Source: Calothrix anomala FACHB-343
GTDB lineage: Bacteria; Cyanobacteriota; Cyanobacteriia; Cyanobacteriales; Nostocaceae
Assembly: GCF_014696435.1 (NCBI RefSeq)
Contig: NZ_JACJQG010000065.1
Coordinates: forward strand, 1-58,382
Reading direction: 5' to 3'
Length of the DNA: 58,382 nt
Shown here: positions 1-46,358 of the stretch, piece after piece
Layout of the letters: every line of letters starts with the position of its first letter
Numbering within the stretch: the stretch's first letter is position 1
Made by a program: the position numbers and the translations under genes
Notes under the pieces: generated by a model
The model's database searches: none
The model's input: the letters and a program-made list of their open reading frames with translations, nothing else
Told to the model about the DNA's origin: nothing

Positions 1-63
1 GTTATGTTCATTGGCTTGAGGAGATGATGTTATGTTGACTATTTTAGGCTTTTTAGAATTACT

Positions 64-1215
64 CTAACCAAATATGTAAAGTTTTGTATCGAGATTCAAC
101 ATTTCTGGTTTTGTCCATAATAAACCAGCAAAAGCTTGTCGCTGTACTTGGCGAATATCTGCTGATAAATTATTCGCAGAAATAAATTGATAAAATTCGT
201 CGGCTTCTTGCTGACGCAACTGTAATGTGGTATCAAATTCTTCAGCTAAAGGTTCTGCTAAATCTGGAATATCAGACAATCTTAGGCGAATAATTTGCGT
301 TTCTCCTGCGCCAATTTCTAATTGGTAATGGGTTGCTGCTTTTGTACCTGTTTGGCTGGGATTGACTGCTTGCTGATCGCCGTGAATAATATAGTCGTTA
401 ATTCCATCTTTGACATAGGGAGAATGATTTTTCACTCCAAATAAACGCTGGGAGTTAGTTTCATTTTCAGTAAATAAAACATTGTGGCAATTTTCAAAGT
501 AAAGCCAGCGATTGCCTAAAGAAGGGTGAGATGCATGAATAACATTAGCAGCATGGCTTAAAATTGGCTTTTGGCTGTCACTTTGCCAAGACCAAGTATT
601 ACGAAACCAGACTGTAGGTAATATATGCAGGGTTTTAGCTGACGCAGCCCGATTGACAATGCTAATTTGAATGAGAATATCTTCGGGTGAATGTTTGGCA
701 TATTCGACAAACACATCAAAGTATTCATGATGATCAAAAATGCCTGTATCGACTAATTCAAATTCGGGTTCGTCGTAGCCCCGACGCTGATTTTCTGCTA
801 CTAATTTTTGGTAGGGAAATGCTTTTTGGGGATATTTATAAAGGTATTTCATGTAGGCATGAGAGGGAGTATTGTCAAGATAAAAGTAATATTCTTTGAC
901 ATCTTCCCCATGATTACCTTCTGGCCCAGATAGCCCAAATAGCCGTTCTTTGAGAATGGGATCTGCACCATTCCAAAGTGCGATCGCAAAACACAACCGT
1001 TGATGATTATCACTAATACCCGCAATTCCATCTTCACCCCAACGATAGGCGCGAGAACGAGCCTGTTCGTGGGGAAAATAATCCCAGGCTCTACCATCTG
1101 TACTGTAATCTTCGCGCACTGTTCCCCATTGGCGATCGCTCAAATAAGGCCCCCATCTGCGCCAATAGGCTTCACGGTTGCGGTCTTGTTCCAGTCTGTT
1201 TTGTTCTGCGGTCAT
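64..1215 (-). pseudogene. 3'-truncated GH63-like (MGH1-type) glucosidase
   Basis: The 383-residue product matches the N-terminal part of the large bacterial 'glucosidase' family related to glycoside hydrolase family 63. Seen early in the protein are RWGPYLSDRQWGTVREDY, the RAYRWGEDGIAG and NHQRLCFAIALWNG blocks, and later ADIRQVQRQAFAGLLWTK. Family members are usually near 900 residues and continue after that last block into the (alpha/alpha)6 catalytic barrel. Here the reading frame switches to an unrelated tail (PEMLNLDTKLYIFG) and stops. No barrel is present in the 63 bases to the left, so the enzyme should be inactive. It sits just downstream of a glucose-dehydrogenase-like gene on the same strand (27 bp apart), suggesting an earlier operon that released and oxidised glucose. 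I infer gene decay by deletion; a sequencing or assembly break is the alternative. Confidence 0.75.
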
Positions 1216-1242
1216 GTTTTTTACTCTTTTTGCTAGTTTTAT

Positions 1243-2052
1243 TTACGCAGACCAAGCTTCTCGAAAGTCAGCGTATAGCGTTAGTCCACCATCAATAAAT
1301 AGGGTTTGTCCAGTAATATATGCAGCTTCATCGGAGGCTAAAAAAGCTACCACCGCCGCCATTTCCGCCGCAGTTCCCGCACGACCCATTGGAATATGAC
1401 TTTCCACAACAGCTTTCTTTTCGGGGTCGTTTACCCAATCTTCGTTGATGGGGGTGATAGTTGCGCCTGGTGCGATCGCATTCACGCGAATACCTCGGTT
1501 TGCATATTCCAACGCCAGAGTTTTAGTCATATTTTCCATCCCACCTTTGCTGATGGAGTAACTAATATACATCGGTCGGGGAATAATTTCGTGAACGCTG
1601 GAAATATTAATGATGATTCCCGGTTGATTTTGCGAGAGGAATTGTTTAATTGTTTCCCGCGCACAGATATAAGCACCACGCAGATTTACTCCAATGACTC
1701 GATCAAAGTCTTCAGTCTTGATTTCATGGGATGGACATTCAGTTTGAATGCCAGCATTGTTGATTAAAATATCAATACTGCCGAATTTGTCCACTACAGT
1801 GTTGACCATTTCGATAATGTCGGATTCCTGAGACACATCACCCTGTATCAATAGAGATTGAACGCCGCAATTATCGATATCGCCACAGGCTTTTTCCATA
1901 GCCATTTCCTCAGTATCTTCCGCAGCTTCGGGACTTTTGCGGTAATTAATCGCAATATTGCAACCTTCTTGCGCCAAACGAATAGCAACAGCTTGTCCAA
2001 TTCCCGAACTTGCACCTGTAATCAAGGCGTTTTTACCTTTTAATCCTTTCAT
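1243..2052 (-). CDS. SDR-family glucose 1-dehydrogenase
   Basis: A 269-residue classical short-chain dehydrogenase. It has the Rossmann motif TGASSGIG near residues 13-20, the NNAG motif near residue 98, and the catalytic YSISKGG (Tyr and Lys) near residues 162-168. The C-terminal IDGG pattern is typical of this family. The fold uses NAD(P) and oxidises a sugar or alcohol; best resemblance is to cyanobacterial and Bacillus glucose 1-dehydrogenases. The gene lies on the minus strand directly upstream of the truncated glucosidase and downstream of a PQQ-type sugar dehydrogenase, so a role in glucose oxidation fits the context. The substrate itself is inferred from resemblance, since SDR substrate specificity cannot be read reliably from motifs. 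Length is normal and the start is an ATG in MKGLKGKNALITG. Confidence 0.85.
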   Translation of the reverse strand: MKGLKGKNALITGASSGIGQAVAIRLAQEGCNIAINYRKSPEAAEDTEEMAMEKACGDIDNCGVQSLLIQGDVSQESDIIEMVNTVVDKFGSIDILINNAGIQTECPSHEIKTEDFDRVIGVNLRGAYICARETIKQFLSQNQPGIIINISSVHEIIPRPMYISYSISKGGMENMTKTLALEYANRGIRVNAIAPGATITPINEDWVNDPEKKAVVESHIPMGRAGTAAEMAAVVAFLASDEAAYITGQTLFIDGGLTLYADFREAWSA

Positions 2053-2086
2053 GGCATTTTTTCCTATATATGAATCAACTAATTTC

Positions 2087-2227
2087 TAGGACTTACGCAC
2101 CGAACATCAAAACCCTCACAAGGGTGGTCAAAAGTCAAAAGTCAATGGTCAAAATTCAGGTTTTGGACTATGGACTATTGACCATTGACAAAAAGCATGA
2201 AAAATATCTGACACTGCGTAAGTCCTA
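2087..2227. repeat. MITE-like repeat, family A (TIR TAGGACTTACGCA)
   Basis: A 141-bp non-coding segment is bounded by perfect 13-bp inverted ends, TAGGACTTACGCA at 2087-2099 and its complement at 2215-2227. The same ends bound two other short segments in this window, at 39248-39342 and 39559-39653. The interior contains simple CAAAAGTCAA/CAATGGTCAA-type repeats. This is the form of small non-autonomous elements common in Nostocales genomes. Confidence 0.8.
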
Positions 2228-2245
2228 ATTGCTATGAATCTTTTT

Positions 2246-3472
2246 TTATCTAGTAATCCGGAGAATTTTGTCTTGCTGTGCTGGACAATTCCCCCGTCCA
2301 TCACAGTTACTAGTTGTGACATATAATTCACCATCTGGCCCCATAATCGCCTCGCGCAGTCGTCCATATTGACCTTGTAAATACACCTCATGACGCTCGA
2401 CTTGTTGGGGAGATTGGGGGTTGAAGGCGACACGTTGCAAATGTTGGGAACGCAGAGTTGCAATAATTAAGCTACCCTTCCATTCCGGAATAGAATTGCC
2501 AGTATAAATTGCTGCTCCCCCAGGCGGTAAAGCTTCGCGCCACACCATCGACGGCGTTACCAACCCTTCCCCTGCTTCGCAACGATAGATAGTAGGCCAG
2601 CCAAGGTTATCACCTGCTCTTGCTAAACTGAGTTTATCGTGACCTCTTCTACCCAATTCACCGCTAGGGCCGTGGTCTGTTACCCATAGAGTTGATGTAT
2701 CACGCCAATCAAACCCCTGAGTGTTGCGAATCCCACTGATATATACAGGACTTTTCCCAAAAGGATTGTCTTGGGGTACTTGTCCGTCAGGAGTCACCCG
2801 CAGAATTTTTCCAGCCAGGCTATTAACATCTTGGGAACTTTGCGGTTCTCTCGCATCGCCAGTTCCAATGTAAAGCATTCCATCGGGGCCAAAGCGAATC
2901 CGACCACCGTTGTGAAATTGCGCTACAGGAATATTATCAACAATTACCCGATCTGCTGAAGCACTAAGTCCGTCTTGAGATAATCGCCAGCGTTCAACAC
3001 GATTCACCTGCGATCCATTTCTATCTGCGGTATAGTACAAGTAGAAAAATTTGTTTTCAGCAAAATTGGGATGAGTTGCAATTCCCAGTAACCCATCTTC
3101 ACCCGTCTCCGTGACTTTGATAGTAGCTACTGGTTTAGGAATCAGTTTTCCACCCTGCACTAGGCGAACTCTTCCCGGTCTTTCCGTAACTAACATATCT
3201 TGATTGGGTAAAAAAGCAATTCCCCAAGGAACTTCTAAACCTGTTACTACTTCTTCAGCCTTTAGCTTTACCTGTCCCTGGGAACCGAAGCCACTGTCTA
3301 CTAAAGTACAGGTTTGATTATTACTCCCAGTTTGTTGGCTGACTGGTTGGGCTGTTTGTGTTTCTTGATTATTAATATTTGTGGAATCAGTTGTAGGTAA
3401 GTTACAAGCTGAAAGTCCTAATAATACCATACTAAAAAGTAATTTTCTTGTAAGAGTATTTGTCCTTTTCAT
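2246..3472 (-). CDS. PQQ-dependent sugar (aldose) dehydrogenase, lipoprotein
   Basis: A 408-residue protein of the glucose/sorbosone dehydrogenase beta-propeller family (YliI/soluble GDH type). The N-terminus is a lipoprotein signal: basic residues, a hydrophobic stretch, then the lipobox LSAC with the cysteine near residue 23, so the mature protein should be membrane-anchored outside the cytoplasm. A low-complexity Thr/Gln linker follows. Family blocks visible are GLEVPWGIAFLPNQDMLVTERPG (first 20 or so residues of the propeller), the HNGGRIRFGPDGMLYIGTGD block with its catalytic His, and TDHGPSGE. It probably oxidises aldoses using PQQ. Same strand as the SDR dehydrogenase, separated by a MITE-like repeat, so cotranscription is uncertain. 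Cyanobacteria vary in their ability to make PQQ; cofactor supply is unknown here. Confidence 0.85.
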   Translation of the reverse strand: MKRTNTLTRKLLFSMVLLGLSACNLPTTDSTNINNQETQTAQPVSQQTGSNNQTCTLVDSGFGSQGQVKLKAEEVVTGLEVPWGIAFLPNQDMLVTERPGRVRLVQGGKLIPKPVATIKVTETGEDGLLGIATHPNFAENKFFYLYYTADRNGSQVNRVERWRLSQDGLSASADRVIVDNIPVAQFHNGGRIRFGPDGMLYIGTGDAREPQSSQDVNSLAGKILRVTPDGQVPQDNPFGKSPVYISGIRNTQGFDWRDTSTLWVTDHGPSGELGRRGHDKLSLARAGDNLGWPTIYRCEAGEGLVTPSMVWREALPPGGAAIYTGNSIPEWKGSLIIATLRSQHLQRVAFNPQSPQQVERHEVYLQGQYGRLREAIMGPDGELYVTTSNCDGRGNCPAQQDKILRITR

Positions 3473-3808
3473 AATTTATTCTCTGCCAAAAATAGCCTTT
3501 TGCATGGTTGAGGAAATTGCTCATTAATTGAGTTGGTTCTATAATGAGTTGCAAATTTAAGAATATTAATTAAATTAGCAACTTGAATTTTTCAGCACAA
3601 TGAACACCATGATAATATAGTTTGTCTGTACCCAAATTTTATTGCATCTACCCATAGACCGAATTAGAAAAATTTGCCTTGAATATTCGGGACTTCCAGA
3701 AAGTAAATTATCCAGCGATAGGATATTTTTTTTGAGAAGTCCCTTGTTCGCGACCTATTTATGATTGCTGTAGGTACATTTAACCAGAATTTATCTAGAG
3801 ATATATCC
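3473..3808. other. Intergenic, no gene seen
   Basis: About 336 bp, AT-rich, between the PQQ-type dehydrogenase and a 50-codon gene. I found no convincing reading frame, tandem repeat or strong terminator hairpin. It presumably contains the promoter of the dehydrogenase lipoprotein gene. Confidence 0.5.
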
Positions 3809-3961
3809 TTAACGCATCACGATATTTCGTTGAGAATTTGGTGTCTGTATAGTTATTTCATCTGTTACTTGACGGTATTGTAACCAAGCGAATAAAGCAG
3901 CAGTACCCAGAAAAATTAAAGTTATACTGGCTACAACTTGCAGCATGATACTGTAACGCAT
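3809..3961 (-). CDS. Small single-pass membrane protein (50 aa)
   Basis: A short reading frame running from an ATG at 3961 to a TAA at 3809. It begins MRYSIMLQVVASITLIFL, and the hydrophobic stretch, about 20 residues ending in an aromatic WLQY border, is a good transmembrane helix. A polar tail (residues 31-50) ending in NIVMR follows. The codon pattern and the clean helix-plus-tail layout look like a real gene. No Shine-Dalgarno sequence is obvious. It lies on the same strand 131 bp after the NOX/FRE-like reductase gene and could be the last gene of that SOD-reductase group. I do not recognise the family. Its function is unknown; a small subunit of the membrane reductase is only a guess. 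Confidence 0.5.
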   Translation of the reverse strand: MRYSIMLQVVASITLIFLGTAALFAWLQYRQVTDEITIQTPNSQRNIVMR

Positions 3962-4092
3962 AATCAAAATTAAGGAAATGTAGATTTTGGGTTTTGGTAA
4001 TCAATTGAAATGGGAATTTTTTCGCCAAAATTCTCCAATCAACCAACTAGGAATGTCGGCTAACGCTATAAAATAGCAACCTGTGAATTAAG

Positions 4093-5436
4093 TTAAACAA
4101 GGTTGTAATGTTCCATGTGAATATTAGTCACAGGTACATCCAACTTGTGTAAAGCTTTTTCAACTTCATTCATCATTTTTGGTGCAGCACAAATAAAGTA
4201 ATTGCGAGTCGCAGGACGTTTAGGAATATAGCGTTCTAGCAGTTGTTGATCGACATATCCATTTTCGCCTGACCAATCTTCTGGAGGTTTGCGAAGAACG
4301 TGGATAACTGTCAGGTCTAATTTGTCTTTTAAGGCGTCAATCTCTTCTCGGTAGGTTATATCATCCCAAGTTGTACTCGCATAAATTAAGAGTAGAGGGC
4401 GCTCGTCTTGACGTTCTGCTAAAGTAAAAAGCATACTGATAATTGGTGTGATCCCTATCCCTCCAGCAATCAAGACAAATCCAGCTGTATTCTCATAGAG
4501 GTCTGTAGTAAACACGCCATAGGGGCCATCGAGGAAGGCTTTAGTACCTGGTTTGACATCCTTAATTGTGTTGGTGAAATCTCCTAAAGCCTTAATCCCA
4601 AATTCAATGCGATCGCGTTTTTCGGCACTGGAAGCAAAAGAAAATGGATGTTCCCGCATTCTAAACGGCGATATTTCCAAAGTCAGCCAAGCAAATTGGC
4701 CTGGTTGGAAAGTAATTCCATCATGTCCTCTAGGACGCAAAACCAAATTCCAGACATTACCTCTTTGGGGAATAGCAGCTTCCACTAAGTAGGGTTTTTT
4801 CTGCATAAAATAAGGTTTAACCAACCTGACATAAATCAACAGCCACAACGCCGTTATTGCAATAGCAGTCCAGATTAACGCTTTCCAAAACAGCCCTAAG
4901 TAGTTACCTACACCCAATGCATGTCCTAAACCAAATGCAACGATAATCACAGCTAAAATGCCATGAGCTATACGCCAAGGTTCATAGGGAATATTCAATT
5001 TTTGCCGCCAAATTGAGGTGACAATAATTGCAATTAGCGCCAAAGTAGCTATTACTGCTGCCCTTGCTCGCCACGGTGCTTGGATAAAATTTAATAGTTG
5101 TAGTGTCTCTGGATTATGAATGAATAGAACTATGGGATGAGCCAGGATAAAAAAGAATGCAACTATGGAAGTATAGCGGTGAAACTGAAGAATTAAGTCA
5201 ACACCATAGGAGGCTTCGATGCTTTTAATCCTAGCAGTTAAGGCAAACTGCATTGCCATCATTGCTAAACCAATAAAACCCAAAGCAGCAGACAATTCTA
5301 ACCAAAAACTACGTTCATCACTGGGTGTCGGTGGGTATAAAAGTAAGATGAATAGAGGGAAGAGAATAATTAAAATATATGCTACTATCCAAGATACCCC
5401 GATAACTACAGGATTTTTCATCAATAAACTTCTCAT
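4093..5436 (-). CDS. NOX/FRE-like membrane flavocytochrome reductase
   Basis: A 447-residue protein with two parts. The first half (about residues 10-210) holds six predicted membrane helices with histidines suited to haem b binding, for example HRYTSIVAFFFILAHPIVLF, as in the ferric-reductase-like transmembrane domain. The second half is a ferredoxin-NADP reductase-type module: HPFSFASS for FAD, GPYGVF, the pyridine-nucleotide loop LIAGGIGITPIISML, and a C-terminal CAAPKMM segment. Such proteins pass electrons from NAD(P)H through FAD and haem across the membrane to ferric iron or oxygen. The gene follows a secreted Mn-SOD by 12 bp on the same strand. That pairing would suit a superoxide-generating or superoxide-exposed reductase, but which acceptor is used cannot be read from sequence. 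Confidence 0.82.
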   Translation of the reverse strand: MRSLLMKNPVVIGVSWIVAYILIILFPLFILLLYPPTPSDERSFWLELSAALGFIGLAMMAMQFALTARIKSIEASYGVDLILQFHRYTSIVAFFFILAHPIVLFIHNPETLQLLNFIQAPWRARAAVIATLALIAIIVTSIWRQKLNIPYEPWRIAHGILAVIIVAFGLGHALGVGNYLGLFWKALIWTAIAITALWLLIYVRLVKPYFMQKKPYLVEAAIPQRGNVWNLVLRPRGHDGITFQPGQFAWLTLEISPFRMREHPFSFASSAEKRDRIEFGIKALGDFTNTIKDVKPGTKAFLDGPYGVFTTDLYENTAGFVLIAGGIGITPIISMLFTLAERQDERPLLLIYASTTWDDITYREEIDALKDKLDLTVIHVLRKPPEDWSGENGYVDQQLLERYIPKRPATRNYFICAAPKMMNEVEKALHKLDVPVTNIHMEHYNLV

Positions 5437-5448
5437 CAGCCCATACCT

Positions 5449-6264
5449 CTAAACTTTTTGTTGCAATCCAGCTTGCGATCGTCTGTTAATTTCTGTCCAA
5501 TTCACCACATTCCACCAATTATTGAGATACTCAGGACGGCGATTTTGATATCTCAGGTAATATGCATGTTCCCAGACATCGTTACCCATAATTGGGTATA
5601 AACCATCCATGATTGGGCTATCTTGATTAGCTGTAGTTACTATTTGGAGTTGATTTTGGGCATTACGCACCAACCAAACCCATCCACTACCAAATCTGTC
5701 TCCACCTGCTTCATTAAATTGTTTTCTAAAAGCGTCAAAACTACCAAAAGTTTGATTTATTTGTTGGGCTATTTCTCCTGTTGGTTGTCCACCACCATTA
5801 GGACTCATAATTTGCCAAAAAATTGTATGGTTGAGATGACCACCACCATTGTTGCGCACCGTCTCCCGAATATCTTCTGGGATATTATTTAAGTCGCGCA
5901 GCATTGCTTCGACACTTCTATTTTTCAGTTCTGGATGCTTTTGTAAGGCTTCATTGAGATTATTAACGTATGTAGCATGGTGTCTGTCATGATGCAGTTT
6001 CATGGTTTCTGCATCAATAGCTTTTTCTAGTGCGTTATAAGCGTAAGGTAATTTTGGTAGCTGTGCGGGAGTAGCAGTTAATTCTCTATCAGGATATGCT
6101 ACCGGTGGAGAGTTGGTAGTTAGAGGAGTTTGTTGTGTTACAGGTGAGACAGTAGCAGTTGGTGACTCTGTAATTTGGTTTTCTTGACAAGCAAATAGTA
6201 CAGACACCAAAAAAATTCCGGCGATAAACAAAACAAATTGTTGTCGTAAAAATTTTGTCAGCAT
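5449..6264 (-). CDS. sodA: Mn-type superoxide dismutase, membrane-anchored lipoprotein
   Basis: An Fe/Mn superoxide dismutase, 271 residues from the ATG at 6264. I prefer that start to the longer frame reaching 6324 because the protein then begins with a lipoprotein signal ([16 protein letters not shown], lipobox VLFAC). A Thr/Pro linker precedes the enzyme domain. Metal ligands are visible in [22 protein letters not shown] and [18 protein letters not shown]. The Gln in NQDSP is characteristic of Mn rather than Fe enzymes. Heterocystous cyanobacteria are known to have a membrane-associated Mn-SOD (SodA) of this design. It detoxifies superoxide at the outer face of the membrane. The next gene downstream, 12 bp away, is a membrane flavocytochrome reductase. 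Confidence 0.88.
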
Positions 6265-6331
6265 AGATTTTATCCAATTAAAAGTTGATACTTCTCGTTT
6301 ATTGCATAACTCCAAATACAACAATTCCTGT

Positions 6332-6691
6332 TCAGGTAAGCGGTGCGATTAATCTTAGGAGTATAGAGTTAATAATTGCCAAGGAAATTGAGCCAAGCAA
6401 AGCACTCCAAAAACCGTATCTGAGACGAAAACCAGGTACGATCGCAGCTGATAAAGCAAAGATAATCGAATTGAGAATAAAAAAGAATAAGCCTATGGTA
6501 ATGATAATGAATGGCAAGGTGAAAAAGGTTAAAACTGGCAGTAATAGAGCATTTAAGATGCCAAAAACTGCGGCGGTAATTAATGCTTTCCCAAAATTGT
6601 CTATTTCTACGCCTATTGGTAGTCGAGAAATAATCAAAAAACTGATAGCTGTGACTACCCAAGTAATAATCAGCCCAACCATAAAATACAC
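6332..6691 (-). CDS. Phage-holin-family-4-like (YvlD-type) membrane protein
   Basis: A 119-residue, very hydrophobic protein with about four transmembrane helices, first [20 protein letters not shown], then the [21 protein letters not shown] block characteristic of the 'phage holin family' / YvlD membrane proteins that occur in many bacterial chromosomes. Despite the family name it is a normal chromosomal protein in cyanobacteria, and nothing around it looks like a prophage. It lies on the same strand just upstream of the SOD gene (67 bp from the preferred SOD start). Its function is unknown. Confidence 0.75.
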
Positions 6692-6879
6692 TTGTGAACA
6701 ATATTTTGATTATGAGCGATAAATGTGAAGAGAAAGTGACTGCTTTATCCTGCTCACTGTACCCCGTCGGGAGAAAGTGCTGCTCGATTACCAAAATGAA
6801 ATATGCTGTTATTCAAGCGAACTTGATATAGGTTGTAGATTAAATTAACAGATTTCTCAATTTCTTTGAGTGGTGATTT

Positions 6880-7761
6880 ATGTTTCAACGAGTTTTGATT
6901 TGCACAGATTTTGCGGATGGTTTGCATCGGCTCACAGGTTTTGTTTCTAGTCTGGCGCTGGCGGGGATGAAACAAATAGTATTTCTCCACGCTGTTCCCT
7001 TGTGGGAAAAAGGCATTATCCCACGAGTTGATAATGAAAAAATAGAACAAGCTCAAACTCGTTTGGCAAAAACTCTTGGTGAAAGTTCTACCGATGTAGA
7101 AGTAAAAATAGAAGTTTTATCGGGTAAGTCTGTTGATATTATTCTCAAGGTTGCCCAAAATTACCAGTCTCAATTGATTATACTGGGTTCTCAAAGCCGC
7201 AATTTACTCACTGAAAAATTAGTGGGCAGTACAATGGCTGATTTATCTCACAAAACAACAATTCCGTTGCTGGTGCTACGTCCTCAATTAATTTCTACTT
7301 ATACTGCTGAGGAATTAACACTTCGATGTCAGCACCTTTTCCGTTCTTTACTACTCCCCTATAACGGAACTCCAGCTGCGAATTATTTAGTGCAACAGGT
7401 AAAGCAATTAGCGCAACAACAATCCGCTCGCTATGTTCAAGCTTGTACGCTATGTTGGGTATTAGAAACTACTGGTAATCGCTCACTACCGCAGAAAATT
7501 TCACCGCAGCAGGCGCAACAAAGCTTATCTGAGATAAAAACTGATTTAGAAAAGCTAAATTTACAAGTAGAGACAGAAGTGCGCGAAGGATCTACGGTAA
7601 CGCAGATTTTAGAGGCGGCGACAATGGCAGATATTAGCGCGATCGCATTATCTTCAGCAACAATCGGTACAGCCCAAGAATGGCTAATTTCCAGCTTTGC
7701 TGCTGAATTATTGCGTTTTAGCTGGTATCCCGTACTCTTTTTTCCACCCCAACGTCGCTAA
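6880..7761 (+). CDS. Universal stress protein, two tandem UspA domains
   Basis: A 293-residue cytoplasmic protein made of two UspA folds. The first (residues about 1-145) starts MFQRVLICTDFADG and has the nucleotide-binding segment LGSQSRNLLTEKLVGST followed by the TTIPLLVLRP strand. The second (about 155-293) starts RSLLLPYNGTPAA and ends with FSWYPVLFF; its binding loop is degenerate. Tandem USPs of this kind bind ATP or act in stress physiology, but the role here is not known. The gene stands alone on the plus strand, facing the ASRT homologue, with a strong shared hairpin between the two. Confidence 0.85.
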   Translation: MFQRVLICTDFADGLHRLTGFVSSLALAGMKQIVFLHAVPLWEKGIIPRVDNEKIEQAQTRLAKTLGESSTDVEVKIEVLSGKSVDIILKVAQNYQSQLIILGSQSRNLLTEKLVGSTMADLSHKTTIPLLVLRPQLISTYTAEELTLRCQHLFRSLLLPYNGTPAANYLVQQVKQLAQQQSARYVQACTLCWVLETTGNRSLPQKISPQQAQQSLSEIKTDLEKLNLQVETEVREGSTVTQILEAATMADISAIALSSATIGTAQEWLISSFAAELLRFSWYPVLFFPPQRR

Positions 7762-7799
7762 ACCTGTTATCGATACCAGAAAAAAGATAAAGGCAATTT

Positions 7800-7859
7800 A
7801 GGGTAACCTTTTAGTTGGCGTAGAAGGCACATTTTGCTGCAGACAAGGTTACCCTTTTT
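7800..7859. terminator. Bidirectional terminator-like hairpin
   Basis: A perfect 11-bp inverted repeat (AGGGTAACCTT at 7800-7810 and AAGGTTACCCT at 7845-7855) is followed by a T run on the plus strand. It lies between the convergent USP and ASRT-like genes. The 34-base loop is long for a classical intrinsic terminator. Confidence 0.6.
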
Positions 7860-7861
7860 AT

Positions 7862-8239
7862 CTAATTACCAGGAAATGCCATAGTACTGAGCAAGGCATT
7901 TTCTGCTTGTCGCGAATCTAACCGAGTATGTTGCACTACAATCGGTACATCGGAGGTAATAACACTGGCAAAATCAGTATCATGCGGGATCGGTTCTGGA
8001 TCTGTCAAATTATTAAAGCGGATATGCTTTGTACGTTGTGCAGGAACAGTTACCAGGTAAGGGCCAACAGGGTCTTTATCACTGTAATAAATCGTAATTT
8101 CTACATGGGCGTCCTTGACCCCAGCATTAAGAATACACACAGTTTCATGACTGATAAACTGAGGTTCCGGCCCGTTGCTGTATGGAGGAATGTAACCTTC
8201 AGCGATCGCCCAACAAGTACGTCCAATTGACTGATTCAT
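7862..8239 (-). CDS. Anabaena sensory rhodopsin transducer (ASRT) family protein
   Basis: A 125-residue protein closely resembling the soluble transducer of Anabaena sensory rhodopsin. Shared blocks are IGRTCWAIAEGYIPPY at the N-terminus, ETVCILNAG, VEITIYYSDK, VPAQRTKHIRFN, and the C-terminal VVQHTRLDSRQAENALLST. The family forms a beta-rich tetramer that in Anabaena binds the photoreceptor and has been linked to control of light-dependent genes. No rhodopsin gene is in this window, so here the transducer homologue is an orphan and its partner is unknown. The protein appears complete, with no signal peptide or membrane segment. It is convergent with the USP gene. Confidence 0.88.
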   Translation of the reverse strand: MNQSIGRTCWAIAEGYIPPYSNGPEPQFISHETVCILNAGVKDAHVEITIYYSDKDPVGPYLVTVPAQRTKHIRFNNLTDPEPIPHDTDFASVITSDVPIVVQHTRLDSRQAENALLSTMAFPGN

Positions 8240-10190: not shown

Positions 10191-10579
10191 TGCTATATTC
10201 TAATTATTTTATTCATATATTTTTAGATAACTTCGTCATTAATCATACCGCAGTTCAAAAGTTTTAAGTGCTAAAGAACTGTTGGGAGATGTTTGAGATT
10301 ATCGAATTTGAGATTTCAAATTTTGGCTTGAGGAAATTTTCCGGGAAAATCCTAAATCCAAAATTGGGTTACTTTAATTTATACCGTCAAACATGAGCAA
10401 CTTATGCAGAGAACAGGCTGTTAACTGCGTTCCTACCAGAAAATTCATTGTGAGTATATAATAGTATTTGATTTTTAAAATCAGTAAGAGTCTATTTCCT
10501 TCTTGCCTGTTCCCTCCCGACACAAATAATTTCAGCAATTAAATCGGATTAATATATATCAAGTTGGAGTATAGGTATT
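10191..10579. other. Intergenic, no gene seen
   Basis: A 389-bp AT-rich stretch separating the DUF1822 gene from the downstream kinase gene. It contains an imperfect palindrome around GAGGAAATTTTCCGGGAAAA near 10331. The gap suggests the kinase has its own promoter. Confidence 0.45.
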
Positions 10580-38117: not shown

Positions 38118-38307
38118 ACCAAAAGCCTTCAGGCTCAAGTCTGAGGCTACACAAACAAAGCCTAAATATGCAGGCTCAAAACCTATCTTTTGTGAGTCCG
38201 CTGATTCCCCTCCTCGTTTGCGGGGAGGAGTTGGGGGTGGGGTATGATCAGAACGGTGCAAATAAACCTAAGTATTTAACGGAAAGTCAAGTTCACTAAA
38301 AACCTCT

Positions 38308-38342
38308 TCCCCTTCTGCCGTCTGCCCTCTGCCGTCTGCCTT
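38308..38342. repeat. CCTTCTGCCGTCTGCCCTCTG-type repeat
   Basis: Three to four tandem CTGCCGT/CTGCCCT heptamers between trpEG and trpC; the same kind of sequence has invaded the RebD-like gene. Confidence 0.75.
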
Positions 38343-38391
38343 TTCTTAACAATAAATATTCACGCCGACCTACATAAATCCTCCAAGCAAA

Positions 38392-39246
38392 ATGCTAAAT
38401 TATCATTCTCAACTCACACAAACAAATACAAAATCTAGCAACTCGCGTCATATTCTCGATGAAATTGTTGAGTATAAACAACAAGAAGTTGCTCAAATAA
38501 AGGAAAAATTACCTTTAGCAGATTTAAAACTTCAGCTAAATTTAGCACCGCATCCGCGAAATTTCCGCAACGCCCTGAGAGAGAATTCTCGTAAACCTAG
38601 CATCATTGCAGAAGTCAAGAAAGCCTCACCTAGTAAAGGAGTGATTCGTGCTGACTTTGAGCCTGTAAAAATAGCCCAAGCATATGAACAAGGTGGTGCG
38701 AGTTGTATCTCTGTTTTGACCGATGAAAAGTTTTTCCAGGGCAGTTTTGAAAACTTACGGATTATTAGAAATCATGTAGCACTGCCACTGCTTTGCAAAG
38801 AGTTTATTATAGACCCTTATCAAATTTATTTAGCAAGAGTTAATGGAGCAGATGCTATATTACTAATTGCGGCTATTCTATCTAATGAAACTCTGAAATA
38901 TTTTATGCAAATTGCTCGCGATTTGGGCATGGTTGCCTTAATAGAAGTACATACTTTAGCAGAACTTGACCAAGTATTAGAGTTAGAGAATGTGCAATTA
39001 ATCGGGATTAATAACCGCAATTTACAAGATTTCAGCCTAGATTTAAAAACAACTCAACATCTGTTAAGAGAACGGCGACAGCAGTTAAGCAGCTTAGATA
39101 TTACGGTTGTTAGTGAATCAGGTTTATACACATCTGCTGATTTAGCTTTTGTTGCCCAAGCAGGTGCAGAAGCTGTATTGATTGGTGAATCTTTAGTTAA
39201 GCAAGCTGATTTAGTCCAAGCTGTTAAGCAACTCTTGATAAATTAA
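38392..39246 (+). CDS. trpC: Indole-3-glycerol-phosphate synthase
   Basis: A 284-residue (betaalpha)8-barrel enzyme that makes indole-3-glycerol phosphate, the tryptophan-pathway step before tryptophan synthase. Catalytic lysine and phosphate-binding motifs are visible: [65 protein letters not shown] and [10 protein letters not shown]. The N-terminal 30 residues are more variable. It lacks a fused TrpF domain. The next trp gene is trpA, 550 bp downstream, with three small repeats between. trpD and trpF, which supply its substrate, are not in the window and must be encoded elsewhere. Confidence 0.93.
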
Positions 39247-39247
39247 C

Positions 39248-39342
39248 ATAAGACTTACGCAAATTCATGAAAAAACGAACCACGAAGTACGCAAAGAACA
39301 CGAAGTAAAGAGAGTGAGGGAGATTTATCGCGTAAGTCCTAT
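39248..39342. repeat. MITE-like repeat, family A, copy 2
   Basis: Inverted ends ATAAGACTTACGCA and CGCGTAAGTCCTAT around a CGAACCACGAAGTACGCAAAG interior; same ends as 2087-2227, with small mismatches. Confidence 0.75.
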
Positions 39343-39402
39343 AACAATATAAGCAAGGTAGAGGGCATAATTAGGAGCATCCCAAATGTGTAAATTTATT
39401 TT

Positions 39403-39470
39403 TTGTAGTGATGGCTCTCTAGGGCGCTGATTTGACATTAGGGAGCAAGATGCTCCCACTACAAATTTAT
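39403..39470. repeat. MITE-like repeat, family D, copy 2
   Basis: Nearly identical to 34401-34467, from TTGTAGTGATGG to CCCACTACAAATTTAT; the centre differs slightly. Confidence 0.75.
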
Positions 39471-39488
39471 CGCGCTCTTGCTATCAGT

Positions 39489-39552
39489 TGTAGGGGCGGG
39501 TTTACAGATATTCTCCTTAATTAAGGATGATCTAAATAAACCCGCCCCTACA
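39489..39552. repeat. MITE-like palindrome, family C, copy 2
   Basis: Perfect 16-bp inverted ends, TGTAGGGGCGGGTTTA (39489-39504) and its complement (39537-39552). Same family as 21366-21430. Confidence 0.85.
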
Positions 39553-39558
39553 TATAAA

Positions 39559-39653
39559 ACAGAACTTACGCAAAAATTGCCAAAAAGCTTAATTTATTGA
39601 ACCGCCAAGACGCCAAGAACGCCAAGAATTCGTAGAGTGTGCGTAAGTCCTAT
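39559..39653. repeat. MITE-like repeat, family A, copy 3
   Basis: Ends CAGAACTTACGCA and TGCGTAAGTCCTAT flank a GCCAAGACGCCAAGAACGCC interior. Only a few bases separate it from the family C element to the left, so this gap is a repeat cluster. Confidence 0.75.
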
Positions 39654-39798
39654 AAAACTCCACCCATCAAGGGAAGGAGTTTTTTATTTACTTCTGCCTC
39701 CCGCCATCTTCCAACTGCCTTCTTCCCAAATTGTGCATTTTTTATTCTTCCTTTCCCCTATATAAAAATAGTTAACCTTTACTTACTAGTTACTTACT

Positions 39799-40602
39799 AT
39801 GACATCTATTTCTCAACGATTTGAAGTTTTACGTGCAAAAAATCAATGTGCTTTGATTCCTTTTTTAACAGCTGGCGATCCGGATTTAGAAAATACAGCT
39901 GAAGCCCTAAGAGTTTTAGATGCAAGCGGTGCAGATTTTATTGAATTAGGAGTTCCTTATTCCGATCCGTTGGCTGATGGGCCGATTATTCAAGCAGCTG
40001 CTACCCGCGCCCTAAAACAAGGAACTCGTTTGATTCATGTTTTAGAAATGGTACAGTCGGTGACTCGGAGTTTGCGATCGCCTATTATCCTCTTTACTTA
40101 CTACAACCCTATTTTAAATATGGGTGTGCAACGATTCCTTGAGCGGGTTGCAATCTCCGGGGTTAAGGGGTTAGTTGTACCCGATCTACCTCTAGAAGAG
40201 GCAGGTAAACTATTACAGATTGCCGATTCTGTGGGGGTTGAAGTCACATTGTTAGTCACTCCTAATAGTTCGCCAGAACGCATTCAAGCGATCGCGCAGC
40301 AATCCCAAGGCTTTATTTACCTAGTGAGTGTCACAGGTGTTACAGGTATACGTCAAGAGGTACAAACTCGTGTTAAAGATGTACTCGCCCAAATCCGTAA
40401 TGTCACAGATAAGCCAATTGGTGTAGGATTTGGTATTTCTAGCCCAGAACAAGCCCTGCAACTGAGGGAATGGGGTGCAGATGCAGTCATAGTTGGTAGT
40501 GCCTTTGTACAAAGGTTGTCAGATAATACACCTTACCGAGGTTTACGCGCTATTCGCGATTTCTGTAGCGATTTGAAAGTATCCATAGGGGCTAGAGGCT
40601 AG
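39799..40602 (+). CDS. trpA: Tryptophan synthase alpha chain
   Basis: A 267-residue TIM-barrel subunit that cleaves indole-3-glycerol phosphate to indole and glyceraldehyde 3-phosphate. Catalytic Glu and Asp lie in [19 protein letters not shown]; phosphate-binding and active-site segments [13 protein letters not shown] and [11 protein letters not shown] are present. Length is normal. It precedes trpB by about 98 bp, with a heptamer tandem repeat between them. Cyanobacterial housekeeping trp genes are usually scattered, so this trpC-trpA-trpB block points to a dedicated set. Confidence 0.94.
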
Positions 40603-40639
40603 GGATTAGGAAAACAAAAATCTATTACCCAACCTTTTA

Positions 40640-40683
40640 ACAGTCAACAGTCAACAGTCAACAGTCAACCGTCAACCGTCAAC
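40640..40683. repeat. Short tandem repeat (AGTCAAC)n between trpA and trpB
   Basis: About six heptamers, the last two with AACCGTC variants; same unit as 24652-24694. Confidence 0.85.
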
Positions 40684-40700
40684 AATTAACGAGATTAATC

Positions 40701-41945
40701 ATGTTAACCAACACACAAAACACTAATATTTCTACTTCACAATTCAACCAGCAACCTGATGCTTTAGGTCGCTTTGGTCAATTTGGTGGTAAATACGTTC
40801 CAGAAACCTTAATGCCTGCATTAAGCGAGTTAGAATCAGCGTTTTACAAGTATCGTGACGATGTTAATTTCCAAGCTGAACTGCAAAATCTCCTCCGTGA
40901 TTATGTAGGACGCGCAACCCCTCTTTACTTTGCTGAACGCTTAACTCAGCACTACGCCCGTCCAGATAGCACCCCGCAAATTTACTTAAAACGTGAGGAT
41001 TTAAATCACACAGGCGCTCACAAAATAAATAATGCTTTGGCGCAGGTTTTACTTGCAAAGCGCATGGGTAAAAAAAGAATTATTGCGGAAACAGGAGCCG
41101 GTCAACATGGTGTAGCAACGGCAACAGTCTGCGCTCGTTTTGGACTGGAATGCGTAATTTATATGGGCATCCACGACATGGAACGACAAGCTTTAAATGT
41201 GTTTCGGATGCGCTTGATGGGTGCAGAAGTCCGTCCTGTGGTAGCGGGAACAGGAACTCTCAAAGACGCTACCTCGGAAGCAATTCGGGATTGGGTAACA
41301 AATGTGGAAACAACCCACTATATTCTCGGTTCAGTGGCTGGCCCCCATCCCTATCCGATGATGGTGCGAGAGTTTCAAGCCATAATTGGTAAGGAAACTC
41401 GCGTTCAAGCACAGGAAAAATGGGGCGGATTACCAGATATTCTCCTGGCTTGTGTCGGTGGAGGTTCTAATGCGATCGGGCTTTTCCATGAGTTTATCGA
41501 TGAATCTTCTGTGCGCCTAATTGGTATTGAGGCGGCGGGTGAAGGTATTGATACCCAAAAACATGCCGCGACTCTCACAAAAGGACGAGTTGGGGTTTTG
41601 CATGGTGCAATGAGTTACGTGCTGCAAGATGAGGATGGACAGATTATTGAAGCGCACTCAATCAGTGCGGGATTAGATTATCCCGGTGTCGGCCCAGAAC
41701 ATAGTTATTTGAAGGAAATTGGACGTGCTGAATACTACAGCATCAGCGATGCAGAGGCGCTGGCGGGATTTCAACGTCTATCCCAACTCGAAGGAATTAT
41801 TCCGGCCCTGGAAACATCTCATGCGATCGCTTTTTTAGATCGGCTTTGTCCCCAACTCACCGGTAGTCCCCGCATTATTATCAACTGTTCCGGACGGGGT
41901 GACAAAGATGTGCAAACGGTTGCCAAATTTTTCCCCCCTGCATAA
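40701..41945 (+). CDS. trpB: Tryptophan synthase beta chain
   Basis: A 414-residue PLP enzyme that joins indole and serine to give L-tryptophan, the substrate of the oxidase encoded 9 kb away. The PLP lysine lies in [13 protein letters not shown]; the [13 protein letters not shown] loop, [13 protein letters not shown] phosphate-binding loop and the [11 protein letters not shown] segment are all intact. The first 20 residues are variable, as usual. It is the last gene of the aromatic-supply block and is followed by a 650-bp gap and a porin gene. Confidence 0.95.
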
Positions 41946-42598: not shown

Positions 42599-44254
42599 AT
42601 GCTGAAGAAAGTTGTTAATATCAATACTGACCAAAAATTGCCGGGTAATATTGTCAAAAGTGTAAGTTCTTTAAGCTTATTACTGCTATTAACTTATCCA
42701 GCAAGGGCACAAAATGCACCAGAGTCTTTCCCAGAATTAGAAATAGCAGAAAGTACATCTGGAATGAGCCAAGTAACAAGTGTCAGTCAGCTGAGTGATA
42801 TTTTACCTACCGATTGGGCATTCACAGCGTTGCAATCCCTAGTAGAACGCTATGGTTGCATAGCTGGATATCCTAATTCTACCTTTCGCGGGAATCGGGC
42901 TATGACCCGTTATGAGTTTGCAGCCGGACTCAATGCTTGCTTACAACGGGTGAATGAACTGATTGCAACAGCAACTACAGATTTGGTCAAAAAAGAAGAC
43001 TTGGCGACTTTGCAAAAGCTACAGGAAGATTTTGGCGCTGAATTAGCAACTTTGCGCGGTCGGGTTGATACTCTAGAAGTACGTACAGCTGAATTAGAAG
43101 CCCATCAATTCTCCACAACTACCAAACTTGGTGGTCAGGTCATTATTTCTGTAAATACTGGGGGGTTTAGTGGCGATCGCATTATTGACCCTAATGGTCG
43201 AGTACTTGCTACCTCTAACCCCAATCCTACAGTATTGTATCGAGCCGGAATTGATTTAAACACCAGTTTCCACGGAACCGACTTACTAAAAATTCGTCTG
43301 GAAGGTGCAACTGGTGTGATAGACAATGGTCGTCCCGATGGTGGTAGAGACAATGCAGCCGGAGTCCTAGAACCGTTTTTTGGTAGTGTTACCGACTACT
43401 CAGTCAAGCCGCCTACAGTGGGGACATTCGATATCGGCAGACTAGTTTACACTTTTAGACCCATTTCCGACCTTGCAGTTTCTATCGGCCCGGATATTCG
43501 CACCACAGATTATGTTGACCGTAACAGTTACGCTAATCTGAGCTTTTTGGACTTTAGCACACAGGCATTTGCAAATAATTATATTCTCTTTCCGGTTGAC
43601 GGCCCTGCGGCTGGGGCTGCAATTGACTGGAAGCCAGGAAACGGAGCATTTGCTGTGCGGGCGTTGTATGCTGCTGGAGACCCCGCTAATCCTGGTAGAA
43701 GCGGAGTAAATATCAGCACTGCAAGATTTACTCCCTTACTGTATCCCAGCGATTTTGCCCCCACTGCTCAGAGCGATCGCGGTTTATTTGGCGATACCTA
43801 TCAAGGTACAGTCGAATTAGAATACTCACCCTCTAGGAATTTTGCCCTGCGCCTGCAATACAGTGGTGGTGAAGTATTTGCTAAACGCTTTGATGTCATT
43901 GGGGCAAATGTGGAACTCACACTCAGCCAAAGATTTGGTATTTTTGGACGCTACGGTTACGGTAGCTATAATGACACCGCCTTTGGCGACATTAAACCCA
44001 ATTATTGGATGGCTGGGATTGCCATGAGAGATTTGTTTACACGGGGTGCTTTAGCTGGAATTGCCGTTGGACAGCCATTTATTGTCAATCAAATTGGTGA
44101 TTCTACTCAGACTAATTACGAGGCGTTTTATAATTACCCATTTAGCCGGAATATCCAAATTACACCCACAATTCAAGTGATTGATAATGCTGGAAATCAA
44201 GGAAGCAACGGCACAATTTTTACAGGCACACTCCGTACTGTCTTTTCTTTTTAG
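42599..44254 (+). CDS. Outer-membrane iron-uptake-type porin (SLH + OprB-like barrel)
   Basis: A 551-residue exported protein. The N-terminal signal peptide ends near ARAQNAPE. An S-layer homology region follows (about 60-125: LPTDWAFTALQSLVERYGC, IAGYPNSTFRGNRAMTRYEF), which anchors cyanobacterial porins to the cell wall. A short coiled coil (about 130-165, LATLQKLQEDFGAELATLRG) leads to a C-terminal beta-barrel of the OprB/iron-uptake-porin type ending in Phe (LRTVFSF). It probably passes small solutes or iron through the outer membrane. It stands alone, convergent with xisF. A dedicated outer-membrane exit for the cluster product is possible but speculative. Confidence 0.87.
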   Translation: MLKKVVNINTDQKLPGNIVKSVSSLSLLLLLTYPARAQNAPESFPELEIAESTSGMSQVTSVSQLSDILPTDWAFTALQSLVERYGCIAGYPNSTFRGNRAMTRYEFAAGLNACLQRVNELIATATTDLVKKEDLATLQKLQEDFGAELATLRGRVDTLEVRTAELEAHQFSTTTKLGGQVIISVNTGGFSGDRIIDPNGRVLATSNPNPTVLYRAGIDLNTSFHGTDLLKIRLEGATGVIDNGRPDGGRDNAAGVLEPFFGSVTDYSVKPPTVGTFDIGRLVYTFRPISDLAVSIGPDIRTTDYVDRNSYANLSFLDFSTQAFANNYILFPVDGPAAGAAIDWKPGNGAFAVRALYAAGDPANPGRSGVNISTARFTPLLYPSDFAPTAQSDRGLFGDTYQGTVELEYSPSRNFALRLQYSGGEVFAKRFDVIGANVELTLSQRFGIFGRYGYGSYNDTAFGDIKPNYWMAGIAMRDLFTRGALAGIAVGQPFIVNQIGDSTQTNYEAFYNYPFSRNIQITPTIQVIDNAGNQGSNGTIFTGTLRTVFSF

Positions 44255-44670: not shown

Positions 44671-44694
44671 AATTTTGAATTTTGAATTTTGAAT
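44671..44694. repeat. Short tandem repeat (TTTGAAT)n near xisF
   Basis: Three heptamers shortly downstream of xisF; same unit as 42349-42379. Confidence 0.75.
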
Positions 44695-44761
44695 TGTTAT
44701 TTTTTGGAGTTCCCTGAAGCTACAAGCTATACAGAAGGGTTAGCCACTCGATCAATCATAA

Positions 44762-46306
44762 TTAGTAACGATAATCAATTGCTGTCACGAAGTTACCATC
44801 TACGCAGATTTTTTTTACGCAGCCATTAAGTATTGCTCGTTTATCTTGAGGATTCAGTCCTTGCCAGTAATTTTTATTAGCAAAAGCCTTAATAATACGT
44901 TCTTTAGCAATTAATGATTCTCTAGATATATTATTAATTGTTCCCAGTGCGATCGCTATTTGTTCTTTGATGTCATTTTTAATTTGTTCTATTGCCGAAC
45001 TTGGTGGTAAGATTTCTAGATTATTCAGCGATGCGCGCAGAGTTTTTACTTCTGGCGGTTCTTCTATTATCGGTGGTTTGTCTGCTTCTACTAAGTTAGC
45101 TAACCGTTCGGCTTCTTGTGATAATAAATCTGCTACTTGAATATCTAATTTTTTTGAAGAAATCATATCTTTATGATTACAATTACCAGCTTTATACAAG
45201 CGACACTGATAATAGTAAATAGCTTGCCCCTGCTTATCTACTCGTTTTGCATGGCGCGTCATGGAACCTCCGCAATGAGCGCATTTAATTAAATTAGAAA
45301 ATGGGTTAACTTCATTATCTTCTCTAGAAGCCCATCGATTATGACGATTACCGCGAATAATTTGTTTAATTTGTTCGTGTTCGGCGCAGGTAATAATGGC
45401 TTCATCATCGTGGGTTCCCCATTTTACCTTCCATTCATCAAAATGTTTGCGCTTTCCCTTAGATTTCACATAAGTATCAAAAGGTAAACCTCCTGCATAA
45501 ACAGGATTAACTAATAAGGCTTTTAAACCAGGAATTGACCATCTTAAACCAGACCAAGGATAACGCAAAGGGTGATTAGCTTTAGCTGGTGTAAAGACAA
45601 TTTTATCTAAGTCTTCATCACTAATAATTCGTGAATATTTTTCTACTTTATTCCAATCAAAAGCTTTTGTTTCTATGCCAAAATCTGAATGCAATTTACG
45701 CACGGTAGCCGCAACGGAACCGCATTCAAAAAAAGTATTAAAAATATATCTAGCTACATCTGATACAGTTAATTCTCTTCGCCCTGCTAACAAGCAAACG
45801 CATGGAGAATTATCCCGTACATATTTATCATTGTGAATGCGGTATCCTAATGGTGCAACTCGGTGGCTTTTCCCCTGGGTAACGCGATGACGGCGTTCGC
45901 TTTTTAATCTCTCCGTTACCATTCTCACTTCAAATTTAGCAGCAGCCAGCAACATATCAATGGTTAATTCTCCGCCCAGACTGTCGGGATCAACTCCTTG
46001 ATCTAAAGCGATGAGTTTAATTCCTTTAGAGCGTAATACCTCTAACAGTGAATAAAATAAACGGGATGATGAACCAATGCGATCGATGCGGGTAAATTGC
46101 AGAGATATTACCTTACCTTTTGCAGATGTCTTCAAATCATTAATTAATTGTTGTAACCCTTCCCTAACTTCCGTTGTCCGTGACTGAATATCCCAGTAAA
46201 CTTTGGAACAACCAGCATTTTGCAAGCGTTCTATTTGTTTACGCAATGCACCTTTATCTGTTTGCTGCTCCTCACCGCTAACCCTTGCATAACCCCAACT
46301 TTCCAT
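44762..46306 (-). CDS. xisF: Large serine recombinase of the fdxN element (XisF)
   Basis: A 514-residue protein from the ATG at 46306; the longer frame starts at a TTG (46324) and adds six residues. The N-terminal resolvase domain begins MESWGYARVSGEEQQTDKG with the catalytic Ser in YARVS and conserved Arg in FTRIDRIGSSSR. A recombinase domain follows (about 180-300), then a zinc ribbon (IKCAHCGGSMTRH ... YYQCRLYKAGNC) and a helical C-terminus. In Anabaena PCC 7120, XisF excises the fdxN element during heterocyst development and its gene lies beside nifS, reading away from it, exactly as here. The start lies 48 bp from the attachment core, so its upstream sequence changes when the element circularises. 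xisH and xisI, its known helpers, are not found next to it. Confidence 0.92.
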   Translation of the reverse strand: MESWGYARVSGEEQQTDKGALRKQIERLQNAGCSKVYWDIQSRTTEVREGLQQLINDLKTSAKGKVISLQFTRIDRIGSSSRLFYSLLEVLRSKGIKLIALDQGVDPDSLGGELTIDMLLAAAKFEVRMVTERLKSERRHRVTQGKSHRVAPLGYRIHNDKYVRDNSPCVCLLAGRRELTVSDVARYIFNTFFECGSVAATVRKLHSDFGIETKAFDWNKVEKYSRIISDEDLDKIVFTPAKANHPLRYPWSGLRWSIPGLKALLVNPVYAGGLPFDTYVKSKGKRKHFDEWKVKWGTHDDEAIITCAEHEQIKQIIRGNRHNRWASREDNEVNPFSNLIKCAHCGGSMTRHAKRVDKQGQAIYYYQCRLYKAGNCNHKDMISSKKLDIQVADLLSQEAERLANLVEADKPPIIEEPPEVKTLRASLNNLEILPPSSAIEQIKNDIKEQIAIALGTINNISRESLIAKERIIKAFANKNYWQGLNPQDKRAILNGCVKKICVDGNFVTAIDYRY

Positions 46307-46353
46307 AACAGCGCATAGACACAACCTTTATTATATTTGATAGTGAATACTGC

Positions 46354-46358
46354 TATTC
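46354..46358. mobile_element. fdxN-element attachment core (TATTC), right border
   Basis: The pentamer TATTC lies exactly where a frame matching the C-terminus of FdxN begins. TATTC is the known recombination core of the PCC 7120 fdxN element. All sequence to the left, at least to base 1, would then be element DNA. The left border, the 5' part of fdxN and nifB lie outside the window. Confidence 0.75.

Follow-up and report, generated by a model that had tools for sequence, protein, structure and literature searches.

An indolocarbazole-type biosynthetic cluster within a predicted fdxN excision element of Calothrix anomala FACHB-343

The DNA analysed here (the window) is the whole contig NZ_JACJQG010000065.1 of Calothrix anomala FACHB-343, 58,382 bp in length and designated C107; the source genome (G000) comprises 9.24 Mb in 144 contigs. 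The left 46 kb of the window very probably represent the right part of an fdxN-type element of at least 63.2 kb that carries a biosynthetic cluster as an insert and would be excised at heterocyst differentiation. The fdxN element of Nostoc/Anabaena sp. PCC 7120 interrupts fdxN between nifB and nifS, has a TATTC core, spans tens of kilobases, and carries xisF near its right end in the opposite orientation. The element of the window resembles it in the interruption of fdxN, the TATTC core, and the position and orientation of xisF, but differs in its length of at least 63 kb, in the presence of a specialised-metabolite cluster with trp genes, and in having no XisH gene on its contigs.

In the arrangement that we propose, an fdxN element would have taken up an insert of about 45 kb with an indolocarbazole-type cluster and shikimate/tryptophan genes. 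In vegetative cells, the element would sit in fdxN and the cluster would belong to the chromosome. As a heterocyst differentiates, recombination between the two TATTC cores by XisF would free the cluster as a circle and leave nifB-fdxN-nifS-nifU restored.

Borders of the element and the probable contig junction

At the right border, TATTC is followed by the in-frame fdxN tail QKFSEQLQKRQPQVNYE, and then by nifS and nifU (Table 1). The adjoining xisF lies near this end in the opposite orientation, and its product scores 519.7 bits with NF041201 (cut-off 375). A first-pass annotation of the sequence had placed the right border at 46354-46358 on account of the fdxN tail, the TATTC core and xisF, and the reading frame, nifS and the NF041201 score bear this out. 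The family itself was rejected as proof of an fdxN recombinase, because all four nifK-type recombinases tested also pass its cut-off; the border context therefore decides the type of element.

A search of positions 1-46353 gave no match to nifB or to the 5' part of fdxN, in agreement with the absence of both noted in the first pass, and a left border within the window was rejected on this ground. A genome-wide search for nifB returned two full copies, on contigs C90 and C108. On C108, nifB (39539-40849) precedes a 5' part of fdxN that breaks off at TATTC (C108:41271); the leftward extension that the first-pass annotation had suggested thus recovers nifB, 5' fdxN and the second TATTC. The 5' half of fdxN therefore follows nifB on C108 and the 3' half precedes nifS in the window (46351), with TATTC cores as direct repeats at both ends (C108:41271 and window 46354). 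The two halves joined at TATTC give one open frame similar to the intact FdxN on C90, which argues that the TATTC pair is not a chance 5-mer. Positions 1-46353 of the window belong entirely to the element, whose left border lies a further 16,876 bp to the left on C108.

The two contigs appear to meet in a repeated insertion sequence. Nine further sites of the genome match the first 107-110 bp of C107 with 99-100% identity, and five of these sites coincide with the first base of a contig; the final 105-112 bp of C108 have seven further matches, three of which likewise start where a contig starts. The ends of C107 and C108 both begin with GAAATGTTGAAT in inverted orientation, as two ends of an insertion sequence would. 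A glucosidase-like gene (MGH) is split across the break, with its C-terminal part at the right end of C108 (L005:19559-19906, a stretch of this contig). The N- and C-terminal parts are 86% and 85% identical to a whole homologue on contig C140 of genome G016 and colinear with it, and about 1.2 kb is missing between them. This missing middle was sought across the genome, where only a 75% paralogue on C72 was found, and a third contig between C108 and C107 was rejected for that reason. A small deletion beside the insertion sequence is the preferred reading, such that C108 and C107 would be adjacent, with one copy of the insertion sequence between them. On this reading, the element amounts to 16,876 + 46,353 = 63,229 bp plus the unassembled insertion sequence, that is, at least 63.2 kb.

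The location of the cluster rests on the continuity of the contig to xisF and 3' fdxN, from nifB, 5' fdxN and TATTC on C108, and from the broken gene that the two contigs share. Its position inside the fdxN element, the central claim of the first pass, is thus supported by both borders and by the gene split over the C107/C108 break.

Gene content and origin of the insert

Table 1. Features of the window, with coordinates, strand and basis of assignment.
Feature	Position	Strand	Basis or remark
End of insertion sequence at contig break	1-107		Terminus GAAATGTTGAAT, inverted relative to the C108 end
MGH, N-terminal part of glucosidase-like gene	64-1215	-	Named by reading; no Pfam match; broken by insertion sequence
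Left part of insert: SDR, sorbosone-dehydrogenase-like, ferric reductase-like, Fe/Mn superoxide dismutase (SOD), universal stress protein	1243-8239		Pfam; last by reading
Signalling/transport: Ser/Thr kinase, DUF1822, sigma-factor-like, caspase-domain, Tll0287/HAMP, phosphonate-binding-like, MFS-FHA	8670-20564		Pfam; Ser/Thr kinase and sigma-factor-like genes named by reading
Cytochrome P450 (second)	21426-22694	-	Pfam PF00067; NCBIfam matches only below cut-off
Glyoxalase-fold protein	22990-23367	-	Pfam PF00903
Cytochrome P450, StaP-like	23363-24616	-	Best PDB sequence match 2z3t, E 9.2e-113
Glutathione S-transferase-like protein (GST)	24676-25362	-	Pfam
FAD monooxygenase, RebC-like	25381-27015	-	Best PDB sequence match RebC 2r0c, E 1.1e-193
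RebD/StaD/VioB-type dimer synthase	27333-30692	-	Ferritin-like domain; single copy in genome
L-amino-acid oxidase	30769-32310	-	PF01593; best PDB matches L-amino acid oxidases
MFS transporter (by reading)	32973-34196	+	Open reading frame (ORF); 66% homologue at same place in G022
aroG (DAHP synthase), trpE-G fusion, trpC, trpA, trpB	34609-41945	+	NCBIfam (trpE, aroG); trpC, trpA, trpB by reading
OprB-like porin	42599-44254	+	Pfam OprB and SLH; 68% homologue beside the trp genes of G022
xisF, excision recombinase	44762-46324	-	Resolvase, recombinase and zinc-ribbon domains (Pfam); 97% identical to G012
3' part of fdxN	46351-46410	+	5' part on C108 (stretch L005:2837-3133)
Right TATTC core of fdxN element	46354-46358	+	Same border in G012, G013, G014
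nifS and nifU, chromosomal side of border	46564-48862	+	After the fdxN tail; nifS at 46564

The dimer synthase belongs to the VioB/RebD family, scoring 943 bits with the VioB model TIGR04492, under its cut-off of 1250. A violacein cluster was not recognised, with 943 of 1250 bits for VioB and 52.8 of 600 bits for VioA; VioC, VioD and VioE were not tested by name. Homologues of an amino-acid oxidase, RebD/StaD, RebP/StaP and RebC/StaC occur together, the oxidase being matched only at the level of L-amino-acid oxidases, and the neighbouring genes suggest a RebO/StaO role for it. The StaP-like P450 is named after its best structural match, PDB entry 2z3t, which we take to be StaP. Clusters of the rebeccamycin/staurosporine type likewise contain an oxidase, a RebD/StaD-type synthase, a StaP-like P450 and a RebC-like monooxygenase, whereas the cluster of the window has an extra P450, the GST, the glyoxalase and the trp genes. 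An indolocarbazole core is the best prediction for the product, and its class is a putative assignment made from sequence. No glycosyltransferase or halogenase was noticed on reading the ORFs of the window, a reading that included no search aimed at them. The aroG and trp genes represent a supply of precursors from the shikimate and tryptophan pathways; a second trpB (C1:152055, 86%) means that excision would not remove the sole trpB.

The synthase is 41-48% identical to actinobacterial copies, and the synthase of Chlorogloeopsis fritschii is 68% identical to it. Indolocarbazoles are known or predicted in cyanobacteria, namely the tjipanazoles of Symphyonema bifilamentata and the product of a cluster in Chlorogloeopsis sp. 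ULAP02 (PMC8065813, PMC11392904). The tjipanazoles are halogenated, and the cluster of the window is likened to them by class, not by a gene-level comparison.

Comparison with related strains, as the first pass had proposed, separates the insert from the element that holds it. Four of the eight other genomes of the genus (G012, G013, G014 and G019), in which one long contig carries both nifB and xisF, were compared. The left border is kept in all four and the right border in G012, G013 and G014. The element measures 14,492 bp from core to core in G012, 38,441 bp in G013 and about 27 kb in G014, and in these three it lacks the cluster, the trp genes and the genes left of the cluster. The 16.9 kb on C108 are colinear with them over about 9.7 kb (G012), 10.4 kb (G013) and 13.1 kb (G014), nearly all at 88-95% identity, apart from two short pieces at 73% and 80%; G019 matches just 0.8 kb of this part, at 87%. 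The xisF end is matched at 88-95% across all four relatives and at 89-95% in G012, G013 and G014, in which xisF itself is 93-97% identical. From about C108:57222 to window position 44760, no match longer than 150 bp was found in the stretches of the four relatives. In G019, the left border and xisF (92%) are about 13 kb apart, and the 2 kb fetched after xisF contain no TATTC, fdxN tail or nifS. G019 was consequently not accepted as a fourth clean relative, and it possibly represents a rearranged or decayed fdxN element.

The part that these elements share has a conserved core of its own (L005:11648-18004), which encodes a hybrid kinase of 2118 residues, an adjacent response regulator (named by reading) and a sigma factor. 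Its DNA is 91-94% identical in G012, G013 and G014, so that a large sensor system is kept inside an element that is predicted to be excised.

The insert resembles different sources along its length. Window positions 0.1-6.3 kb correspond to G016:C140, where MGH and the sorbosone dehydrogenase, ferric reductase and SOD genes occur in the same order at 86-92%, the SDR gene being unmatched. Much of the stretch from 8.6 to 44.25 kb is found with the same gene neighbours at chromosomal loci in G022, G082, G085, G086 and G147, where 40 kb per locus was compared and protein identity is mostly 55-87%. The insert of about 45 kb thus appears to be composite, given these differing matches. Within the 40 kb fetched of each locus, the oxidase has no match in G085 and the second P450 none in G085 and G086, and the trp set is found in the order of the window only in G022 among the five. 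The RebC-like gene, which lies between the GST and synthase genes, is present in G147, in the window, and in three further genomes treated below (G072, G186 and G189), and is unmatched in G022, G082, G085 and G086; the product may differ between the groups with and without it. Plasmids were rejected as a source of the cluster, since the 18 matching plasmid records are all actinobacterial and below 60% identity, and phages were rejected as a source of XisF, which has no match in the phage collection.

Homologous cluster genes at nifK borders and their distribution

A second arrangement of this kind was found in G072, on a single contig of 524 kb. Here, the oxidase, synthase, RebC-like, GST, two P450, MFS, trpD, trpB, trpA, trpC and trpE genes lie between the halves of nifK in an element of about 36 kb, with an XisF-type recombinase beside 3' nifK. 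NifK residues 1-430 are encoded at local positions 16355-17641 and residues 425-512 at 53819-54082, and the recombinase at 52241-53773. The coordinates alone had suggested a second fdxN case; this was rejected, as fdxN is intact in G072 and nifK is the split gene. A 9-bp match at the two nifK ends, AGGTTAATT, was not adopted as a core, because the nifK coding match ends short of it on the 5' side and resumes beyond it on the 3' side. Another part of this element (L143:1052-9788) contains genes that look conjugation-like by reading; one of the four proteins tested had a Pfam match, to TrbI. This is a hint that heterocyst elements may derive from integrative or conjugative elements.

In G186 and G189, the synthase, RebC-like and GST genes share one contig with 3' nifK, an XisF-type recombinase and a broken nifE. 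No oxidase, P450, trp gene or 5' nifK was matched on the 48 kb contig of G186 or within 80 kb of G189. These genomes were accordingly not counted as holding full clusters, and their partial sets are located by the right border alone, 10-20 kb away. The nifE gene next to the nifK border is interrupted by another serine recombinase in both (G186:C316:39419-40855 and G189:C270:84789-86225). The nifK element of G072 and the nifK-type right borders of G186 and G189 share with the window the homologous synthase, RebC-like and GST genes beside an XisF-type recombinase, but their recombinases are only about 51-52% identical to the XisF of the window, their synthases belong to other branches of the tree described below, and the gene concerned is nifK instead of fdxN.

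The synthase is matched at E 1e-20 or better in 45 of 218 genomes of the family and at 68% identity or more in 39, some of the copies being partial or in pieces (G024, G033, G069, G192); none was found in the other eight genomes of the genus. An xisF of at least 81% identity is present in 23 of the 218, among which only G000 has a synthase of at least 68%; a distant, split synthase homologue occurs in one of them, G096, on another contig. A synthase near an XisF-type recombinase was found in at least four of the 39 genomes (G000, G072, G186, G189), with two target genes, and this count is a lower bound, since at most six candidate recombinases were scored per genome and tyrosine recombinases were left out. 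In the remaining 35, no XisF-type gene was listed within 60 kb of the synthase on the same contig, and in nine (G022, G028, G061, G066, G086, G185, G187, G193, G194) a single large contig carries the synthase and nifB at a distance of over 0.4 Mb. Among 42 loci with up to 10 kb on each side, only that of G186 (L032) contains an XisF-like piece. Gene counts at 35 loci were not used as a measure of completeness, as many loci end close to the synthase.

In a synthase tree of 43 rows, the four element-linked copies require three changes, and strongly supported branches force three. The synthase of G000 has an unresolved position in a group of 30 rows with Scytonema, Brasilonema and Calothrix, the first two being closest at 80-81%. 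Those of G186 and G189 pair within a group with Rivularia and Calothrix parasitica, and that of G072 is placed elsewhere, weakly with Chlorogloeopsis. The tree points to at least three separate placements, or else to fewer gains combined with several losses. That the target genes differ speaks for separate gains.

Such repetition might reflect selection for the location, a reading compatible with the excision of the cluster as part of an fdxN element: heterocysts would gain by losing the cluster, because of, for example, tryptophan drain, oxygen-dependent P450 chemistry or kinase inhibition. It would fit the three or more separate placements near XisF-type recombinases in two target genes. From a survey of 38 genomes with 101 elements of 41.5 kb on average (PMC4874684), a rough expectation of 0.51 such placements over 39 loci is obtained, with P about 0.015 for three or more and 0.0018 for four or more. 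The figure assumes random placement in a genome of 8.5 Mb and has no matched control cluster; moreover, the loci are related and the element load varies between genomes. The partial gene sets of G186 and G189, the 35 genomes in which the synthase has no XisF-type neighbour, and the nine with synthase and nifB far apart all speak against selection, and element cargo is highly variable in any case according to the same survey; we regard selection for the location as unlikely. The broader notion that one kind of alkaloid cluster has settled repeatedly in heterocyst excision elements appears just as unlikely, weakened as it is by the partial clusters in two of the three nifK cases.

Programmed excision of DNA in heterocysts is known for genes of nitrogen fixation. 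Neither this type of element nor this type of cluster is new in itself; new is their combination, together with the homologous cluster in a nifK element. The first-pass annotation held that a specialised-metabolite cluster confined in this manner to the chromosomes of vegetative cells was not known to have been described, and no description was found in the searches made of the open-access literature. Three of the 101 surveyed elements reside in fdxN, and the string 'secondary metabol' does not occur in the main text of that survey, where cargo is described as highly variable and mostly unexplained (PMC4874684). Elements of up to 80 kb, one with a prophage remnant, are reported for Anabaena sp. 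90 (PMC3542288). The portions seen of PMC4907049 make no mention of nif-gene elements, and those of the two papers on cyanobacterial indolocarbazoles (PMC8065813, PMC11392904) make none of excision elements. The presence of homologous clusters in an fdxN and a nifK element allows one to test whether cargo is neutral or whether excision divides metabolism between cell types. If such clusters had indeed settled repeatedly in these elements, cells that fix nitrogen would lose the chromosomal copy of a pathway that consumes tryptophan and uses oxygen, and labour would be divided genetically in specialised metabolism as well as in nitrogen fixation. For genome mining, the caution follows that named clusters may be cut out in some cells of a filament.

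Predicted excision system and second nif cluster

The dN/dS ratio of xisF is 0.056 against G012 and 0.063 against G019, and the 5' part of fdxN differs from that of G013 by one nonsynonymous change and from that of G012 by none. Such values are consistent with a working excision system, and excision in this strain is thereby predicted from sequence comparison. Excision of nifD and fdxN elements has been confirmed by RNA-seq in Nostoc sp. N6 (PMC5987646).

Several observations weigh against the proposed arrangement. The insertion sequence between C108 and C107 is unassembled. The XisH family has eight genes genome-wide, none of them on C107 or C108 (xisI was not searched), and neither xisH nor xisI was noticed on reading the ORFs of the G012 element, the pair apparently not belonging to every fdxN element; in PCC 7120, both genes lie inside the fdxN element and are required (PMC4874684). 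The xisF of G019, with no fdxN tail behind it, indicates that such elements can lose a border. Contig C90 carries a second nif cluster, complete and uninterrupted, in the order nifB-fdxN-nifS-nifU-nifH-nifD-nifK-nifE/N (gene names by reading); with an fdxN of its own, this cluster could make excision from the split fdxN dispensable. Finally, excised circles may persist in heterocysts for a while and be expressed there. Excision thus need not silence the cluster genes, and a loss of their expression in heterocysts is only presumed.

The first-pass annotation had regarded an intact nifB and fdxN elsewhere as an argument against the location of the cluster. Such a pair does occur on C90, but as part of a second nif cluster beside the split copy. 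Because the C90 copy is a paralogous complete cluster and the split copy exists, the location stands.

The same observations could mean that the element is dead, the split fdxN never being restored, nitrogen fixation being served by the C90 cluster and the biosynthetic cluster staying in all cells. The uninterrupted nif genes on C90, the missing XisH gene on the element contigs and the right border apparently lost in G019 would agree with this. We nevertheless consider it very unlikely, given that both fdxN halves are open, that xisF evolves at the low dN/dS ratios given above, that four relatives retain the left border and three of them also the right, and that excision of this kind is documented in Nostoc sp. 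N6. Somewhat less probable still is an assembly chimera, in which a cluster from elsewhere in the genome was misjoined to xisF: the draft state of the assembly and the repeated insertion sequence at the ends of C107 and C108 would allow it, but the cluster is tied to the element independently on both sides (through the contig to xisF and through the gene split with C108), the middle of MGH occurs on no other contig save as the 75% paralogue, and the same kind of arrangement is found in nifK on one G072 contig. An fdxN element that would be excised together with its cluster remains our preferred explanation.

Two repeats were observed in the insert. A sequence of about 145 bp at window positions ~2087-2230 recurs at 80-98% identity in at least 27 other places of G000 and at least 15 of G012, and is probably a miniature inverted-repeat transposable element. 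Beside the cluster, a stretch of 279 bp is duplicated at 20622-20900 and 20999-21277 with 97% identity, and the small ORF of this region is present in two copies in some relatives too.

Beyond the right border, in the region 50780-58382, nifD is interrupted after SWDYS, and GGATTACTCCG, which we take to be the nifD-element repeat, occurs at 52132-52142; the right end of the window probably lies inside a second excision element, that of nifD. On C132 of the same genome (28163-31243; L008, L157), an XisF-type recombinase adjoins 3' nifK, and nifE is broken by a further serine recombinase (by reading). One nif cluster of this genome thus apparently holds four elements, and the cluster on C90 none.

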